A stretch of DNA of 32,315 bases from Acidimicrobiales bacterium (lineage in GTDB: Bacteria; Actinomycetota; Acidimicrobiia; Acidimicrobiales; Aldehydirespiratoraceae), in assembly GCA_029247365.1 (NCBI GenBank), contig JAQWLJ010000054.1:1-32315 (forward strand), written 5' to 3'. The notes beneath the pieces were generated by a model. It ran no database searches. It saw only the letters and a program-made list of their open reading frames with translations, and was not told the DNA's origin. The position numbers were made by a program, and so were the translations under genes. This document shows positions 1-10,172 of this stretch, one piece after another; position 1 is the stretch's first letter; every line of letters begins with the position of its first letter.

Positions 1-660
1 TGCGAACGCTGCGATTCCTGTTGCGCCAATTGCGCCCGAGAACCATGCCCGAGTGCGCAGGTCGGTCGGGACGGCGATCGGCTGGCGCCGCAACGTCGCC
101 GCCGAGGCGAGCACGAGAGCCGCGGCGCCTCGCTGCCCGACAACCGGCCACAGACCAGCGTCTTCGTGGGTGGTGCCGAGAAAGGTCAGTGCGACACCGA
201 ACAACACGCCGCCCACAACACCCCAGACCACCCCGAGGCGGACCCGGTCACCGAGCTCCGGCGAGACCGTGGTACACACCAGCCCAACGACTGCGACCAC
301 GCTGCCGATCAACACAATCGCGGGAAGCGAACCGCCGGTGACGACATCCCAACCGACGGGGATGATCGCCATCAGAACCGCCACGATCGGGGACACGACT
401 GCGGCTGAGGAGAGACTCAGGCCGCGGTACATTGAGCTGAGGGCAAACCCGAGTGCGACGCCCGATGCGATGCCGAACACCAGCGACCGGCCGTCGAGCA
501 CACTTGGCACGATGAAGACGAGCACGACGGAAACAATCACGCCGGCCAGCGCCGCGTTGGCCACGGTCGAGAAGGCATGCCATCGCCGGGTGACATTTCC
601 GCCGAAGTAGTCCGACACGCCAACGGCGATCGAGAACCACAGGCCGAGCAGGACGGTCAT
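1..660 (-). CDS. EamA/DMT-family transporter, 3' end cut by window edge
   Basis: The minus strand is open from an ATG at 660 to the window edge, giving 220 residues without a stop. The translation is strongly hydrophobic, with about seven candidate membrane helices separated by short polar loops, starting MTVLLGLWFSIAVGVSDYFG. A conserved-looking RGLSLSSAAVVSPIVAV stretch resembles the repeat end of EamA (drug/metabolite exporter) proteins, which usually have ten helices in about 290 residues, so roughly the last quarter is missing. It begins 13 nt after the DddP-like M24 gene on the same strand, so the two probably share an mRNA and the transporter may move a substrate or product of that enzyme. 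The substrate cannot be read from the sequence. The family call is fairly safe; specificity is unknown. Confidence 0.75.
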   Translation of the reverse strand, partial: MTVLLGLWFSIAVGVSDYFGGNVTRRWHAFSTVANAALAGVIVSVVLVFIVPSVLDGRSLVFGIASGVALGFALSSMYRGLSLSSAAVVSPIVAVLMAIIPVGWDVVTGGSLPAIVLIGSVVAVVGLVCTTVSPELGDRVRLGVVWGVVGGVLFGVALTFLGTTHEDAGLWPVVGQRGAAALVLASAATLRRQPIAVPTDLRTRAWFSGAIGATGIAAFA

Positions 661-673
661 CGATGAGTTGGCC

Positions 674-1873
674 TCATGCGAGCAGTGACTCGTCGAACGG
701 GTAGAGCGACATGAGTTCGGTGCCGGAGTCGGTCACCAGGACCTGTTGCTCCAGCTTTACGCCCTCGGTGGTGCCGGGTCCGCCGATGAAGCTTTCGACA
801 CAGAGGGTCATGCCCGGCTCAATCACTCCGTCGTAGCCAAACGAGGTGAAGTCCTGAGCGTGATAGAGGTAAGGGTACTCACCGGTCATGCCGACGCCGT
901 GGCTCGACAGGTAGTAGCGGTGGGCGGCGAATCGTTCGGGCAGATCCCAGGCCCGCTCGCTGTACTCGGCGAACGTCAGCCCCGGCTCAACGATCCCCAT
1001 ATTGTGGTGGACTTGCTCGTGGGCAATCCGGTACAGCTCCCGTTGCGCAACGCCCGGCGCGTCGGGGCCGGCATGGAAAGTCCGTGAGAAGTCGGCGTAG
1101 TAGCCGTGGCAGCCGACGACGTCAGTGTCGAACGCAATCAGCTCGTTGACGCCGATGACCTTGTCACTCGTCTCCTGAAACCACGGATTGGTGTTTCTCC
1201 CCGAGGACAGCAGGCGCGTCTCGATGTAGTCGCCGCCCTGAGCGATCACCTTCTGATGGAAGACCGACCAGAGTTCGTTCTCGGTCAGGCCCGGCCGGAT
1301 CTCGGCTTCCATCGCTGCCATGGCCCGCTCAGTAGCGCGCATCGACGCGACCTGGCAGCCAAGCTCCTCAGACCCCTTGATCGCTCGGGCTCGCTCGACG
1401 GGCTCTTGTGCGTCGACGATCTGAATGCCTTCGGCGGCGAGTGCGAGCGCCGCGCCGGCATTGACCCGCTCGAGGCCGACCGGGGCGCGAGCACCGATGG
1501 TCTCGCGCACGAGCGATGCGATTTGGGCCGCCCATGCCTTCTCGACCTCGGCGATCCCCTCCCCTGCCGCGACGAACGACGCAGTGGTCGCATGGCGGAC
1601 CTCGGTGATCGTCTCGAGCCCGTCAGCAAGATGAAGCGCGCCAGTGAACTCGTAGAGGATGACCGGGCCGTTGACCGCAACGAACAGGTAGCGCGCCGGA
1701 TTGCGAGCCGTGAAGATCTGCATGTTGCGAGCGCCGGTGGCGTAACGGATGTTGACCGGGTCGGTCAACACACAGGCCCCGATGCTGCGAGCTGCCATTT
1801 CCGCACGCAGTCGACCGAGCCGGTACGCTCGCAGCGCTACAAAATCAATTGGCGTGTCCTCGCTTGGAAGCAT
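674..1873 (-). CDS. DddP-like M24 family metalloenzyme (Xaa-Pro peptidase/creatinase fold)
   Basis: A 399-residue protein with an N-terminal creatinase-like domain (about 15-165) and a C-terminal pita-bread catalytic domain (about 170-399). Six candidate metal ligands are present: D249, D251, D261, H325, E360 and E375. Their spacing is identical to the ligands I recall for the DMSP lyase DddP (D295, D297, D307, H371, E406, E421), and stretches such as NIRYAT, TNPWFQE and SHGVGM also resemble DddP. Y320 matches DddP Y366, but the position of the DddP catalytic base D377 is G331. It is therefore a DddP relative that may not cleave DMSP; peptidase, creatinase-like or other C-N/C-S lyase activity is possible. 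The ATG at 1873 has a -10 box (TAGATT) 6 nt upstream, pointing to a leaderless mRNA. It is followed by the transporter gene and is divergent from the ureohydrolase. Confidence 0.85.
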   Translation of the reverse strand: MLPSEDTPIDFVALRAYRLGRLRAEMAARSIGACVLTDPVNIRYATGARNMQIFTARNPARYLFVAVNGPVILYEFTGALHLADGLETITEVRHATTASFVAAGEGIAEVEKAWAAQIASLVRETIGARAPVGLERVNAGAALALAAEGIQIVDAQEPVERARAIKGSEELGCQVASMRATERAMAAMEAEIRPGLTENELWSVFHQKVIAQGGDYIETRLLSSGRNTNPWFQETSDKVIGVNELIAFDTDVVGCHGYYADFSRTFHAGPDAPGVAQRELYRIAHEQVHHNMGIVEPGLTFAEYSERAWDLPERFAAHRYYLSSHGVGMTGEYPYLYHAQDFTSFGYDGVIEPGMTLCVESFIGGPGTTEGVKLEQQVLVTDSGTELMSLYPFDESLLA

Positions 1874-1895: not shown

Positions 1896-2888
1896 ATGTC
1901 TGAGCGCGACGACCAACAACGGCTGATGGACGGGATCTTTTGGTACGGAATCCCGACCCTCTTCCGGGCACAGCATGACGAAGACCCACGCAACGCCGAC
2001 ATCGGTCTTGTCGGCGTTCCGCACTCGACGGGCAACGGTACGACCCAACGAGACCAGCACCTCGGCCCGCGGGCCGTCCGCAACGTGAGCGCGATAGGGC
2101 GACGTGCCCACAACCACTTCGGGATCGACCCGTGGGACATGTGCCGGATCAAGGATCTCGGCGATGTCCCGCTCAGCGAAGGAAACAACAACGAGCGGTC
2201 GATCGAAATGATCACCGAGTACTACGCCCGCCTCGACATCGCCAACTGCCGGCCAGTCTCGATCGGCGGCGATCACTCCATCACCGGCGGCATCCTCCAA
2301 GCGCTTGGCGGAGCACACGCCAACCTGACCGGTGGTGAAAAGGCGTGCCTCCTGCACTTCGACGCCCACACCGATGCATTCCATAACATCCCGCACTTCA
2401 TGGGGGCGGTGAAGAGCGCTGCTCACTGGGCGAGCTATCTCGTGACGCAAGGCCATGTTGACCCCGAGCACTCGGTACAGGTCGGGATCCGAGGCAACAC
2501 CCGCAGCCTCGAGTGGCTGGATCCGTCCTACGACCTCGGCTACACCGTCATCAAGAAGACTGACTACGACGAGATGGGCGTCGATCAGGTGATACAAACC
2601 ATCGTCGACACCATCGGCGACCGGCCGCTCTACATCACGTTCGACCTCGACTGTTTGGACCCGATGGTGGCCCCCGGGGTCGCCAACATCGAAGCCGGGA
2701 TCGAGGGCTTTGGTATCGACCAGGTGGTGGAGTTACTCCGGTGCGTGCGAGGCAAAAACATCATTGGCGGTGACGTCGTGTGCCTCATGCCCACGGTCGA
2801 CTCGCCAAACCAGATCACCAGTTATCGCTCGATGGCAATCATGTTCGAGATCTTGAGTCTCATCGCCGACAGCCACCACGGGGCGTAG
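1896..2888 (+). CDS. Ureohydrolase (agmatinase/arginase family) with an atypical substrate pocket
   Basis: A 330-residue Mn-dependent ureohydrolase. The binuclear metal ligands are all visible: H127 in GGDHS, D156, H158 and D160 in DAHTD, and D250 and D252 in TFDLDCLDP. H167 in PHFMG could be the acid/base His. Members of the family hydrolyse guanidino compounds (agmatine, guanidinobutyrate, arginine, guanidine) to urea plus an amine. The Glu that binds the guanidinium in arginase and agmatinase (D-x-x-E-x-x-P) is C296 here, so the substrate is uncertain. The N-terminus carries about 35 residues before the core (FWYGIPTLFRA), as in longer agmatinase-like proteins. The ATG at 1896 is chosen because an in-frame reading further upstream would run into the divergent M24 gene and because of the -10 box 6 nt away. 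It converges with the next gene, with 3 bp between the stops. Confidence 0.85.
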   Translation: MSERDDQQRLMDGIFWYGIPTLFRAQHDEDPRNADIGLVGVPHSTGNGTTQRDQHLGPRAVRNVSAIGRRAHNHFGIDPWDMCRIKDLGDVPLSEGNNNERSIEMITEYYARLDIANCRPVSIGGDHSITGGILQALGGAHANLTGGEKACLLHFDAHTDAFHNIPHFMGAVKSAAHWASYLVTQGHVDPEHSVQVGIRGNTRSLEWLDPSYDLGYTVIKKTDYDEMGVDQVIQTIVDTIGDRPLYITFDLDCLDPMVAPGVANIEAGIEGFGIDQVVELLRCVRGKNIIGGDVVCLMPTVDSPNQITSYRSMAIMFEILSLIADSHHGA

Positions 2889-6100: not shown

Positions 6101-8338
6101 TCAGCGCTCGTTGAGTTTCTTGAGCACCTTCGGTGGCGACATCGGCAGCGAGGTCATACGGACGCCGGTAGCGGCCTTGATTGCGTTGCCAATGGTGGCC
6201 ATGGGTGGGACGATGCCGGTCTCACCCACGCCCCGCACGCCGTACGGGTGTGCCGGGTTCGGGACCTCGACGATGATGGTCTCGATCAGCGGCAGATCTG
6301 ACGCAACCGGGATCCGGTAGTCAAGGAACGAAGCGTTCTCCATTGCGCCGTTGGCGTCATAGATGTACTCCTCGTTCAGCGCCCAACCGATGCCCTGCAC
6401 CGAACCGCCCTGCATCTGCCCCTCGACATAGCTTGGGTGGATCGCGGTACCCGCATCCTGCACGGCGGTGTAGCGGACGATCTCGGTTTCCCCGGTCTCC
6501 TCGTCGACCTTGAGGTCGGCGCAGTGCACGGCGAAGCTCGGACCAGCTCCGGCCGCGTTGAGCGACGCCGTAGCGGTGAGCGGGCCACCGGTTCGCTTGG
6601 CCTGGGCGGTGATCTGAGCGAGCGTCAGCGGCTCGCCGCTCTCGCCACCACCATGGCCGGGCGACACGGCGGCACCGTCGACCCAGGCGACCTCGTCCAC
6701 CTCGACGCCCATGATCGTGGCGGCTCGAGCCTTCAGCTGCCCGATGAGGTCCTCGCAGGCTTCGACCACAGCTTTGCCCGTGGCGAACGTGGCGCGGGAT
6801 CCTTCGGTCACGTCGGTGAATCCAACCGACTCAGTGTCGGCCACAATCGGGGTGATCGAGTACACGTCGATGCCAAGCGTCTCCGCTGCCATCAGGGCCA
6901 TCGAAGCGCGGGAGCCGCCAATATCGGGCGAGCCGGTGATGACGTTTGCGGTGCCGTCCTCGTTGAGATTGACGGTGGCGCTGGACTCCTCGCCAATGTT
7001 GAACCAGAAGCCGACGGCCATACCTCGAGAGGCCCCCTCGACCGGCTCAGACTGATAGTGACCAGACGCCTTCATGGCTTCGAGGCACTCGACCAAGCCC
7101 ACCTTCGGATGAGGCATGCCCATTGCGGTGAGGTCGCCCTCGACGGCGGCGTTCTTGAGCCGCAAATCGATCGGGTCCATGCCGAGTTCGCTGGCGATCT
7201 CATCGACGACCGACTCAATTGCCCACGCGGCGTGGGGGGCCGACGGCGCCCGGTACGCAGCTGACTTCGGCGTGTTGGTGAGCGCCGTGTACGTCTCCAT
7301 GCGCAGGTTCGGGAACTTGTACGAAGCCACCGACATTGCGCCGATCAGACCGGCCATGTCGCCGAATGCCCCAACGCCATAGGCCATCCAGCCGTCGATT
7401 GCGGTGAGTTCACCGTCGTTGGTGGCGCCGACCTTGATGCGCAGTTCGGCACTCGGGGCCGGGCCCGAGGCCCGCAGAACCTCTTCGCGCGACATCACGA
7501 GCTTCACCGGCCTGCCGGACTTCTCCGACAGCTTCGCAGCGATCGGCTCAAGGTAGATCGTGGTCTTGCCACCGAAGCCGCCACCGATCTCCGCTGGGGT
7601 GACCTTGACCTTCGAGTTCTCGACACCGAGCACGTCGGCAGTCATCGAGCGAACGCGGAAGTGGCCCTGCGAAGAGCACCATACGTTGGCCTTGCCGTCG
7701 CCTGAGTCGACCACGCAAGCATGAGGCTCGATGTAGCCCTGATGAACGTGGGCGCAGTCGAAGCCCATCTCGACGACAACGTCGGCGTCAGCCATCGCTT
7801 GGTCGACATCACCACGGTCGAGGTTGGTGACCGTAGCGAGATTCGACGGGTCACCGGGAGGCACAAACCGCGTGTAGTTGTTCGAGTTCGCGAGCGGGGC
7901 ACCTTCGGCCATCGAGTCGGCGATCGACAGGATCGCGGGAAGCAACTCGTACTCGACCTCAATCGCCGCCGCGGCGGCTTTTGCTTCCTCGCGAGTGGTG
8001 GCGGTGACCGCCGCAATGGCGTGGCCGTTGTAAAACACCTCACCGCGAGCCATGCAGTTGACCGCAGTATCAAAATTCGGGTGCGTTGGATCGAGCGCTG
8101 GGAAGTCATCGCCCGTGACGACGGCCTTCACGCCGGGCATTGCCTCGGCCGCCGACGTGTCGATCGACACGACCTTGGCGTGGGCGTGCGGTGAGCGCAC
8201 GATCGAGCCGTGGAGCTGACCGGGCAGATTGAGATCGGCCGCAAAACGCGCCTTGCCAACGACCTTGTCGAAGCCGTCATGACGGATCGGACGAGTGCCG
8301 ATCCACTTGTAGTTGGTGGGGTTCTCCGTTGCCGTCAT
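6101..8338 (-). CDS. Xanthine dehydrogenase family molybdopterin-binding (large) subunit
   Basis: A 745-residue molybdenum hydroxylase large subunit binding molybdopterin cytosine dinucleotide (family knowledge). The a/b hammerhead domain spans about 20-135. The Mo cofactor domains follow, with GGGFGGK at 252-258, AYRAPSAPHA at 361-370 and the catalytic Glu E706 in GVGE near the C-terminus. The CO dehydrogenase signatures (AYXCSFR of form I, AYRGAGR of form II) are absent, so this is not an aerobic CODH. The family hydroxylates N-heterocycles, aldehydes or similar substrates with water as oxygen source. The ATG at 8338 has GGGAG about 8 nt upstream and lies 1 bp after the stop of the 2Fe-2S subunit gene. 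The substrate is unknown; the neighbouring Rid- and RraA-like genes hint at catabolism of a nitrogen compound. Confidence 0.9.
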   Translation of the reverse strand: MTATENPTNYKWIGTRPIRHDGFDKVVGKARFAADLNLPGQLHGSIVRSPHAHAKVVSIDTSAAEAMPGVKAVVTGDDFPALDPTHPNFDTAVNCMARGEVFYNGHAIAAVTATTREEAKAAAAAIEVEYELLPAILSIADSMAEGAPLANSNNYTRFVPPGDPSNLATVTNLDRGDVDQAMADADVVVEMGFDCAHVHQGYIEPHACVVDSGDGKANVWCSSQGHFRVRSMTADVLGVENSKVKVTPAEIGGGFGGKTTIYLEPIAAKLSEKSGRPVKLVMSREEVLRASGPAPSAELRIKVGATNDGELTAIDGWMAYGVGAFGDMAGLIGAMSVASYKFPNLRMETYTALTNTPKSAAYRAPSAPHAAWAIESVVDEIASELGMDPIDLRLKNAAVEGDLTAMGMPHPKVGLVECLEAMKASGHYQSEPVEGASRGMAVGFWFNIGEESSATVNLNEDGTANVITGSPDIGGSRASMALMAAETLGIDVYSITPIVADTESVGFTDVTEGSRATFATGKAVVEACEDLIGQLKARAATIMGVEVDEVAWVDGAAVSPGHGGGESGEPLTLAQITAQAKRTGGPLTATASLNAAGAGPSFAVHCADLKVDEETGETEIVRYTAVQDAGTAIHPSYVEGQMQGGSVQGIGWALNEEYIYDANGAMENASFLDYRIPVASDLPLIETIIVEVPNPAHPYGVRGVGETGIVPPMATIGNAIKAATGVRMTSLPMSPPKVLKKLNER

Positions 8339-8339
8339 C

Positions 8340-8831
8340 TCAGGCTCCCTGCTCGCTCGTTGTCTTGAGTTGCACGGCGGCTTCTTGCACCGCACGCACG
8401 ATCTTGTCGTAGCCCGTGCACCGGCAGAGGTTGCCGGCGAGGCCGTATCGAATCTCGGTTTCGGTTGGGTCGGGGTTCTCGTCAAGCAGCGCTTTGGCTG
8501 CCACAAGAAACCCTGGGGTGCAGACACCGCATTGGAGGGCGGCGCCCTCGAGGAAGGTCTGTTGCAGCGGGTGGAGCTGATCACCGTCGGCGATGCCCTC
8601 CACGGTGACGATCTCGCGCCCCTCGGCCTCGGGGGCCAAGATGAGGCACGAGCAATTCAGCTTGCCGTCGAAGAGGACCGAGCAGGAACCACAGTCGCCA
8701 GTACCGCAGCCTTCCTTGGTTCCGATAAGACCAAGCTCATCGCGCAACGCATCGAGCAGCGACGTGGAGTCGGCCGACAAGAAGTCGGTCGGCTCGCCGT
8801 TGACGGTGCAGTTGATGTGTGTTCGTGACAT
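8340..8831 (-). CDS. Molybdenum hydroxylase 2Fe-2S (small) subunit
   Basis: A 163-residue ferredoxin-like subunit. The plant-type [2Fe-2S] motif CGTGDCGSC with a further Cys in LNCSC is in the first half. The second, helical [2Fe-2S] domain has CGVC (in LQCGVCTPG) and CRC (in NLCRCTG). It carries electrons from the Mo site in the large subunit to FAD in the medium subunit. The ATG at 8831 is preceded by AAGGAG 10 nt upstream. The 5' end overlaps the end of the FAD subunit gene, and the stop is 1 bp before the large subunit start, so the M-S-L subunits are tightly co-expressed. Confidence 0.92.
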   Translation of the reverse strand: MSRTHINCTVNGEPTDFLSADSTSLLDALRDELGLIGTKEGCGTGDCGSCSVLFDGKLNCSCLILAPEAEGREIVTVEGIADGDQLHPLQQTFLEGAALQCGVCTPGFLVAAKALLDENPDPTETEIRYGLAGNLCRCTGYDKIVRAVQEAAVQLKTTSEQGA

Positions 8832-9693
8832 GTAGATCAGGCTCCTTCTGGGCGCGTTCAGCAGCAATGACCACAGCGCGCTTCGCGAGCACGCCGGCGA
8901 CCTGGGTGCGGTACTCGACGGTGCCGCGCTTGTCGTCGATGGGGTTGCAGGCCGCCGACGCAGCGGCGGCCACGGCAGCGAGGGTCTCATCGTCGAGGCG
9001 AGACCCGACGAGAGCGGCTTCGGCATCGGGGACGCGCACCGCGGTCGGGGCCACGGCACCGAGCACCACGCTGGCAGAGCTGACCGTGTCGCCATCCATG
9101 GTGAGGCGGACGGCCGCCCCGACGACGGCGATGTCCATCTCGGTGCGGGGGGTCATCCGCAGGTAGGCGTCGCCCGTACTGATCGGAGCGTCATCGATCT
9201 CAAACTCGACAATGAACTCGCCGTCAGCAAGTGAGGTCCGGCCCGGCCCGGTCACGACATCGGCGACAGAGACAGTGCGCTGGCCGCCAGCGCCAGCGAT
9301 CACGGCCCGGGCGCCCGACGCGATCATCGCGGGCACCGAGTCGGCAGCCGGAGAGCCGTTGCACAGGTTGCCGCCGAGGCTCGAGCGGTTCTGAATCTGG
9401 TCGGAACCGATCAGACCGGCGCCTTCAGAGATACCGGGGTACATGCCGACGAACTCAGCGTTATGGGTGAGGTCAGAGGCCGGGGTAGCCGCCCCGACGG
9501 TCCACTGACCATCGGCGTGCGACACCGACGTCAGCCGATCGATCCGCTTCAGGTCGACCATCGCCGACGGCTCGGACCGGCCGGAGCGCATCTGAGGGAC
9601 GAGGTCGGTCGCACCTGCGAAAACCCGAGAGCCCGGGTTATCGGCCAAGAGCGAGCAAGCCTCATCCACCGTCGTGGGAGCGGCGTATTGCAT
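8737..9693 (-). CDS. Molybdenum hydroxylase FAD-binding (medium) subunit
   Basis: A 318-residue CoxM/XdhB-type FAD subunit. The FAD pyrophosphate motifs of this family are visible as AGATDLVPQMR (about 26-36) and SSLGGNLCNGSPAAD (about 109-123), followed by the C-terminal CO_deh_flav_C-like domain. It passes electrons from the 2Fe-2S subunit to the final acceptor. The ATG at 9693 has AGGA about 9 nt upstream and is the first gene of the operon. The frame runs 95 bp into the 2Fe-2S gene; the last 35 or so residues are unlike the family and Arg-rich. A two-base frame change near 8850 would place a stop just before the 2Fe-2S start, so either a sequencing or real frameshift or a genuine long overlap exists. 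Confidence 0.88.
   Translation of the reverse strand: MQYAAPTTVDEACSLLADNPGSRVFAGATDLVPQMRSGRSEPSAMVDLKRIDRLTSVSHADGQWTVGAATPASDLTHNAEFVGMYPGISEGAGLIGSDQIQNRSSLGGNLCNGSPAADSVPAMIASGARAVIAGAGGQRTVSVADVVTGPGRTSLADGEFIVEFEIDDAPISTGDAYLRMTPRTEMDIAVVGAAVRLTMDGDTVSSASVVLGAVAPTAVRVPDAEAALVGSRLDDETLAAVAAAASAACNPIDDKRGTVEYRTQVAGVLAKRAVVIAAERAQKEPDLHVTNTHQLHRQRRADRLLVGRLHVAARCVAR
8842..8847 (-). promoter_or_regulatory. Shine-Dalgarno of the 2Fe-2S subunit gene
   Basis: AAGGAG on the minus strand lies 10 nt before the ATG at 8831. It falls inside the 3' end of the FAD subunit gene and decides the start of the small subunit. Confidence 0.65.
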
Positions 9694-9794
9694 TGAGCAA
9701 TCCTTTGCTTTGTGAGCTGCGAGATTGTGAGCATGCCACGTCGAGGCGCCGGACGCTGAACCCGCCGACAACCTTCGCATGTCATGATTCGCTG

Positions 9795-10172
9795 ATGCAG
9801 CGAACGTCCATCGAGATCGCAAGCCTGTCGCATCTCGCACCACTTCCCGCCGCCAGCAAGGTCGGCCCATTGCTCGAGTCGAGCATCACCACGCCGTTCA
9901 ATCCTGGCACCCGCAATCTGCCTCCTACGTTTGCGGAACAAGCCGAGAATCTGTTCATCCACATGGAGCAGATGCTCGAGGCGGCTGGCGGCGGTTGGGA
10001 GCACGTGGCCAAGATCACCTTTTTCCTCGCCGAGCCCGAGAGTCGAGCCAAGCTGAACGTTCCGTGGCTCGAGCGGTTCCCCAACGAGGCGTCACGGCCA
10101 GCCCGCCACATCATGGAGGTCGATGCCGGAACGTCAAAGGTGACGTGCATTTTCACCGCCTACATTGCGTGA
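9795..10172 (+). CDS. Rid-family (YjgF/RidA-like) protein
   Basis: A 125-residue member of the Rid superfamily. The central helix segment (FAEQAENLFIHMEQMLEAAG) and the C-terminal RPARHIMEVDAG block are typical, and R104 matches the substrate-binding Arg of RidA. The Glu that RidA uses in its C-terminal E-A-I-A strand is not present (TAYIA here), so it is probably not a standard 2-aminoacrylate/imine deaminase but one of the divergent groups found in catabolic operons. The ATG at 9795 is used because upstream codons do not look like the family. It is divergent from the molybdenum hydroxylase operon (101 bp apart) and 2 nt before the RraA-like gene. Confidence 0.8.
   Translation: MQRTSIEIASLSHLAPLPAASKVGPLLESSITTPFNPGTRNLPPTFAEQAENLFIHMEQMLEAAGGGWEHVAKITFFLAEPESRAKLNVPWLERFPNEASRPARHIMEVDAGTSKVTCIFTAYIA

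Follow-up and report, generated by a model that had tools for sequence, protein, structure and literature searches.

The gene at 1873 to 674 on the minus strand of the window, i.e. the 32,315-nucleotide stretch of DNA that was analysed, encodes a DddP-like M24-fold protein of 399 aa in which a Gly (Gly331) occupies the position of Asp377 of DddP, a DMSP lyase that produces dimethyl sulfide in the sea. As judged from the alignments, this residue is the mark of a widespread subfamily and not of a one-off broken copy. Our best reading, for which we infer both substrate and reaction, is that the Gly331 proteins are a DddP-like subfamily that would break a bond in a quaternary-ammonium betaine. That the subfamily acts on a betaine-type substrate rather than on DMSP is somewhat probable on the basis of its gene neighbourhood.

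The Gly331 protein and its active site

Positions 674-1873 are interrupted by stops when read on the plus strand, the real open reading frame being that of the minus strand. In a phmmer search of the PDB four DddP chains came on top (E-values 2e-73 to 6e-72 in a database of that size; E-values vary with the database), followed by the next family at 2e-14, and residues 13-398 could be aligned to RlDddP with E-values of 3.1e-73 (4rzy_A) and 2.2e-73 (4s01_A). DddP is described as having six metal ligands as well as a Tyr (Tyr366) and an Asp (Asp377) that are termed invariant, with Asp377 as the favoured base (PMC4108388, sections consulted). All six ligands are found on the expected columns of the phmmer alignment, i.e. 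Asp249 (1127-1129; DddP Asp295), Asp251 (1121-1123; Asp297), Asp261 (1091-1093; Asp307), His325 (899-901; His371), Glu360 (794-796; Glu406) and Glu375 (749-751; Glu421), as is the retained candidate base Tyr320 (914-916; Tyr366), all codons being on the minus strand. The preliminary description had given these seven spacings, though not the strand, and its DddP numbers agree with those in the consulted part of PMC4108388. It was equally right in placing Gly331 at the Asp377 position: the GGT codon (881-883, minus strand, counted from the start at 1873) belongs to a stretch from Tyr320 to Glu332 that aligns without gaps, and the 4s01 chain, a deposited D377N mutant, has its Asn in exactly this column. 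No other Asp fills the place in the alignment, and in the columns shared by at least 24 of the 25 core rows we saw no compensating acidic residue confined to the Gly clade.

The surroundings of Gly331 differ from those in M24 enzymes. According to the consulted part of a review (PMC5395565), which also gives the RlDddP mechanism of Wang et al. (2015) and the DddP Trp, two His residues bind the substrate in M24 enzymes and are swapped for Asp and Phe in DddP. Trp231-Phe232 (1178-1183, minus strand) provides the corresponding Trp, which does not vary across the 63 rows tabulated for the Gly/Ala and Asp types (25 of the core, 9 outer ones with Gly or Ala, 6 of DddP and 23 others with Asp; the table leaves out five with Asn, Thr or Val), and a Phe at the place taken by His in an M24 homologue from the same genome (L083). 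This homologue contains Pro at the Trp231 column and His at both the Phe232 and the Gly331 columns. Thus, the Gly/Ala clade has neither of the M24 peptidase His residues nor the lyase Asp. Additionally, all 25 core rows have Tyr321, Tyr333, Tyr335 and Tyr337. Tyr321 is core-specific among the residues tabulated, Tyr335 is also present in 2 outer rows, and Tyr333 and Tyr337 occur in 19 and 9 of the 23 other Asp rows, respectively. In the AlphaFold model (pLDDT 91.5) residues 331-337 are located in one strand that starts at Gly331, so that residues 331, 333, 335 and 337 should face the same side, and from this alternation Tyr333, Tyr335 and Tyr337 (863-877, minus strand) may be regarded as a possible aromatic cage.

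The protein has an M24 Pfam domain and the pita-bread fold, and most annotated relatives on plasmids are named as members of the Xaa-Pro peptidase family, which could mean that it simply works as a Xaa-Pro peptidase or as some other amide hydrolase of the M24 type, unconnected with betaines. We regard this as unlikely, as the two His columns are occupied by Phe232 and Gly331 and as the DddP structures match far better than the peptidases: in a fold search they came first (Z 48.4-48.7, rmsd 1.7-1.8), followed by a Xaa-Pro dipeptidase (Z 34.8), although the fold match to DddP as such is expected and carries no information on the substrate. Moreover, no peptidase or ectoine hydrolase model came near its cut-off, the protein being far under that of the peptidase models including PepQ and reaching 40 bits (cut-off 575) and 30.6 bits (cut-off 613) with the two models of the ectoine hydrolase DoeA.

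Distribution of the subfamily and its relation to DddP

A scan of genome contigs yielded at least 80 loci with a match, and 140 of 148 matching open frames (>150 bits, >300 aa) were retained for a family alignment with 141 rows (128 distinct ones). In all 128 the set of six metal ligands is complete. Each of the 73 distinct rows with at least 60% identity to the window protein (itself counted) has Gly at position 331; at 44-60% identity the residue is Gly (6), Ala (1) or Asn (1), and below 44% it is mostly Asp (37 rows, against 8 with Asn and one each with Gly and Thr); these counts keep the seven Gly rows below 60% identity as well as the Ala, Asn, Thr and Val variants. The motif RYYLS[AS]HGxGMTGEYPYLYH hardly varies between the sequences of Acidimicrobiia and those of Burkholderia, Pseudomonas, Roseovarius and Marinomonas. 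Within the window's own family, 33 of 51 genomes have a match at E 1e-50 and 10 have one with at least 60% identity, an eleventh, G053, carrying a copy broken by a stop; in a sample of 296 genomes of the class a match at E 1e-150 is present in three, the own genome included. This patchy occurrence suggests that the subfamily has spread by horizontal transfer. In the literature searched, which was mostly judged on titles and the beginning of abstracts, we recognised no description of it.

Further variants exist among the DddP-like proteins. Three loci of the window's family (L130, L133, L134) contain tandem pairs, with one partner of the Asp type and the other carrying Asn in place of Tyr366 as well as of Asp377; it is possible that such pairs form a mixed dimer. 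In the proteins of six other loci (L071, L074, L075, L127-L129) Asn occupies the Asp377 position, and Val or Cys stands where DddP has Tyr366.

The preliminary description had regarded the protein as a DddP paralogue with another reaction that has lost the DMSP-lyase Asp, and had proposed a phylogeny together with DddP. In such a tree (178 sequences reduced to 69 rows at 80% identity, a quick tree without bootstrap, with column 331 masked and fungal DddP left out) the Gly/Ala rows (32 Gly, 2 Ala) form one clade with an SH-aLRT value of 99 among Asp-bearing DddP-like rows, apart from canonical DddP, which together with two intermediates constitutes a separate 8-row clade (SH-aLRT 100). Constraining these clades to group with each other carries a penalty of 60 log units and is rejected with a p-AU of 0.017, the group for this test having been chosen after the tree was seen. 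Moreover, Asp is found at the 331 column in 23 of the 69 rows besides the six canonical DddP rows, several of these being located beside FAD-GcvT or MttB genes. The loss of Asp from a DMSP lyase is thus not borne out, and an origin from canonical DddP by recent Asp loss is unsupported by the tree and the AU test.

What stands of the paralogue is the changed active site, the score with the DddP equivalog model (NCBIfam NF043017; 323.2 bits, under the cut-off of 600) and the co-occurrence of both genes. A search with this model in 26 genomes gave 11 with a match over the cut-off, and nine of the 26 (G001, G002, G003, G007, G009, G010, G011, G016, G018) contain a Gly-type gene as well as an over-cut-off DddP gene, which scores above 800 bits in seven of them and 625 and 649 bits in G016 and G018; the two further genomes over the cut-off (G012, G013) had entered the sample via Asn-type loci. 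When compared with nine canonical DddP proteins, the 73 core sequences reach at best 32-38% identity, the window protein 37%.

These values have a bearing on DddP surveys. In the sections consulted, ocean surveys rank dddP as one of the most abundant DMSP lyase genes of bacteria (PMC5395565) and put it at about 65% of ddd genes (PMC10686828). Since a search of PDB size gave the window protein E-values of 2e-73 to 6e-72 with DddP chains, a loose E-value rule, e.g. the 1e-70 used for a figure in PMC5395565, can admit the Gly-type subfamily, and surveys that use such a rule may include Gly-type genes. The 40% identity rule of PMC10686828 would leave out the core members. The Gly331 motif may serve as a simple filter for DddP counts.

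Gene neighbourhood

Since open frames served as the basis of gene calling, individual labels of neighbours may err; representatives were checked with Pfam and NCBIfam. Among the matches listed, 20 of the 40 Gly-core loci that are not from Acidimicrobiia have an OpuAC, BCCT, MttB, FAD-GcvT or GMC gene within 5 kb (at least 100 bits), compared with two of 60 control regions, both labelled for FAD-GcvT (12-20 kb each, 1.04 Mb in all, from chosen places in 14 of the 26 genomes, nearly all of them Proteobacteria). The positive loci span 11 genera and one MAG and hence do not represent 20 independent events; the remaining 20 are without any betaine-type neighbour within 5 kb, and none of these genes was found within 5 kb in the 29 Acidimicrobiia loci, 17 of which have full flanks. 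An OpuAC-type binding protein is encoded in 12 of the 40 loci (in 10 of them 16-97 bp downstream), a BCCT transporter 62-201 bp downstream in five, and a choline-dehydrogenase-like GMC protein in nine, while two have MttB upstream and a FAD-GcvT oxidoreductase downstream. A relative of the Gly type from Sinorhizobium meliloti (46% identity) is encoded amid genes for MttB, a betaine ABC transporter, a FAD oxidoreductase and an isochorismatase-family protein, together with a GlxA-type regulator and an MR/MLE gene.

Some of these neighbours would also suit a sulfonium lyase acting on DMSP, DMSOP or a relative, with Tyr320 as base. Tyr and Trp are retained, and a LysR-type gene is adjacent and divergent in 19 of all 69 Gly-core loci (assigned via one representative, among the matches listed). 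DddA is a GMC enzyme, which the GMC neighbours may resemble, and such neighbours may alternatively act as 3-hydroxypropionate dehydrogenase; the closest solved structure to the GMC neighbour is a choline dehydrogenase, and it scores 637 bits with a subfamily model (cut-off 605) and 580 with the betA equivalog (732). LysR regulators and BCCT transporters are also present in published ddd clusters, as far as the sources consulted cover them, and Tyr366 was considered as an alternate base in DddP by Hehemann et al. (PMC4108388, sections consulted). Two gammaproteobacterial loci just over the DddP cut-off (L158, L159) are flanked by betaine-type ABC genes, so transporters alone cannot separate nitrogen from sulfur substrates. 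Nevertheless, a sulfonium lyase is improbable, as the residue exchanged here is the one termed invariant and the favoured base in DddP lyases (PMC4108388, sections consulted), as nine genomes already possess an over-cut-off DddP gene beside the Gly-type gene, and as MttB, FAD-GcvT and betaine-aldehyde-dehydrogenase-like proteins are encoded nearby. Eight canonical DddP loci have no betaine-type neighbour within 5 kb.

In the window itself the gene is flanked by an EamA-type exporter gene (1-660, minus strand, cut by the contig start) and by a divergent ureohydrolase gene of the arginase family (1896-2888, plus strand). The truncated exporter piece has no Pfam match by itself and was recognised as EamA via a relative (L004); its C-terminal part matches the start of another contig, C29 (positions 52-261). 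As the exporter is split between the window start and the start of C29, contigs C18 and C29 probably adjoin each other in the own genome. The preliminary description had suggested a tie of the DddP-like protein to both genes, and their adjacency could indicate that the three work together on a guanidino compound, all the more as an Asp-type relative from Alisedimentitalea is located near 5-guanidino-2-oxopentanoate decarboxylase and agmatinase genes. Such a role is very improbable. The ureohydrolase is labelled in only one of 80 loci among the matches listed (L006, 4 kb off; flanks of up to 6 kb, some much shorter), and beside the orthologous gene of a relative it is reduced to two short fragments (L250:15328-15485); for this lack of conservation we reject a partnership. 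The exporter adjoins the Gly-type gene in four of the six genomes of the genus having the gene; one other locus (L015) has an EamA-like gene, which is not adjacent. The window further contains genes of a xanthine-dehydrogenase-type molybdenum enzyme (6101-9870), none of which is at an NCBIfam cut-off.

In the genus of the window, nine genomes were searched, all of which encode MttB and an OpuAC-type protein and none a BCCT transporter. All six that carry the Gly-type gene (own, G064, G065, G067, G068, G069) have MttB, DHDPS and ALDH genes in a row about 7.5-10 kb from it, followed by a DAO gene in five (two partial at the sequence edge; the G064 stretch ends earlier). This operon is transcribed away from the Gly-type gene, and an MFS gene lies in between. 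In the own genome the link spans the contig break that is bridged by the exporter pieces (window 4-660 and the C29 piece), so that the distance given there is a lower bound. The DHDPS gene is also present in G070, where the window protein finds no better matches than 42% and 36% identity, and had no match in G063 and G066. DAAO, DHDPS and ALDH members constitute the hydroxyproline pathway, which also serves hydroxyproline betaine (PMC4113996, sections consulted); the assignment of the genus operon to a hydroxyproline-type pathway is tentative because its enzymes reach no cut-off among the NCBIfam models listed. Another contig of the own genome (C46; L258:884-4841) contains an Asp-type DddP-like gene whose start follows a gene of the FAD-GcvT (dimethylglycine-dehydrogenase-like) type at a distance of 16 bp and whose product scores 455 bits against the DddP cut-off of 600.

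Proposed function and comparison with known enzymes

Based on these neighbourhoods we propose that the subfamily may serve the catabolism of quaternary-ammonium betaines of the glycine betaine, choline or proline-betaine class. Betaine-type transporters would import the substrate, which would then pass on to demethylation of the MttB type and to steps of the dimethylglycine dehydrogenase type. In the active site the carboxylate of the substrate might bind to the two metals and its onium group might pack against Trp231 and the tyrosines, as has been proposed for DMSP in DddP. Gly331 would make the pocket wider, and the acid-base work would fall to Tyr320 or a metal-bound hydroxide rather than to an Asp, resulting in the cleavage of the C-N or an adjoining bond. 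If the subfamily acts on betaines, it would bring a so far unassigned step into the turnover of a major osmolyte class. Going further, one may speculate, with considerably more reserve, that the DddP-like superfamily consists of betaine-cleaving metalloenzymes in which DMSP lyase is one sulfur-specialised branch, and that the Gly331 branch is a new Asp-free enzyme cleaving C-N bonds of quaternary-ammonium osmolytes, thereby releasing or remodelling methylated amine in sea and soil bacteria.

Among known systems, M24 Xaa-Pro dipeptidases, creatinase and DoeA share the pita-bread fold (Z 33-35), the likeness to creatinase being a fold match alone (Z about 33), but the columns of their substrate-binding His residues are Phe and Gly in the subfamily. 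The Asp-type non-canonical DddP-like proteins (that of C46 and those of L098, L101 and L141-L145) have the same metal site, Trp and Tyr and are likewise encoded beside FAD-GcvT, in the case of L098 with MttB nearby too (L160); they differ in that the Asp is retained, and of the ones with a score, the copy in the own genome as well as L098 and L101 fall under the DddP cut-off. DddP itself (RlDddP, 4rzy; RdDddP, 4b28) has the fold, the six metal ligands, Tyr366, the invariant Trp and the Phe at the M24 His place in common with the subfamily, which is set apart from it by Gly instead of Asp377, the low sequence identity, a clade of its own and, for the window protein, a score under the NF043017 cut-off.
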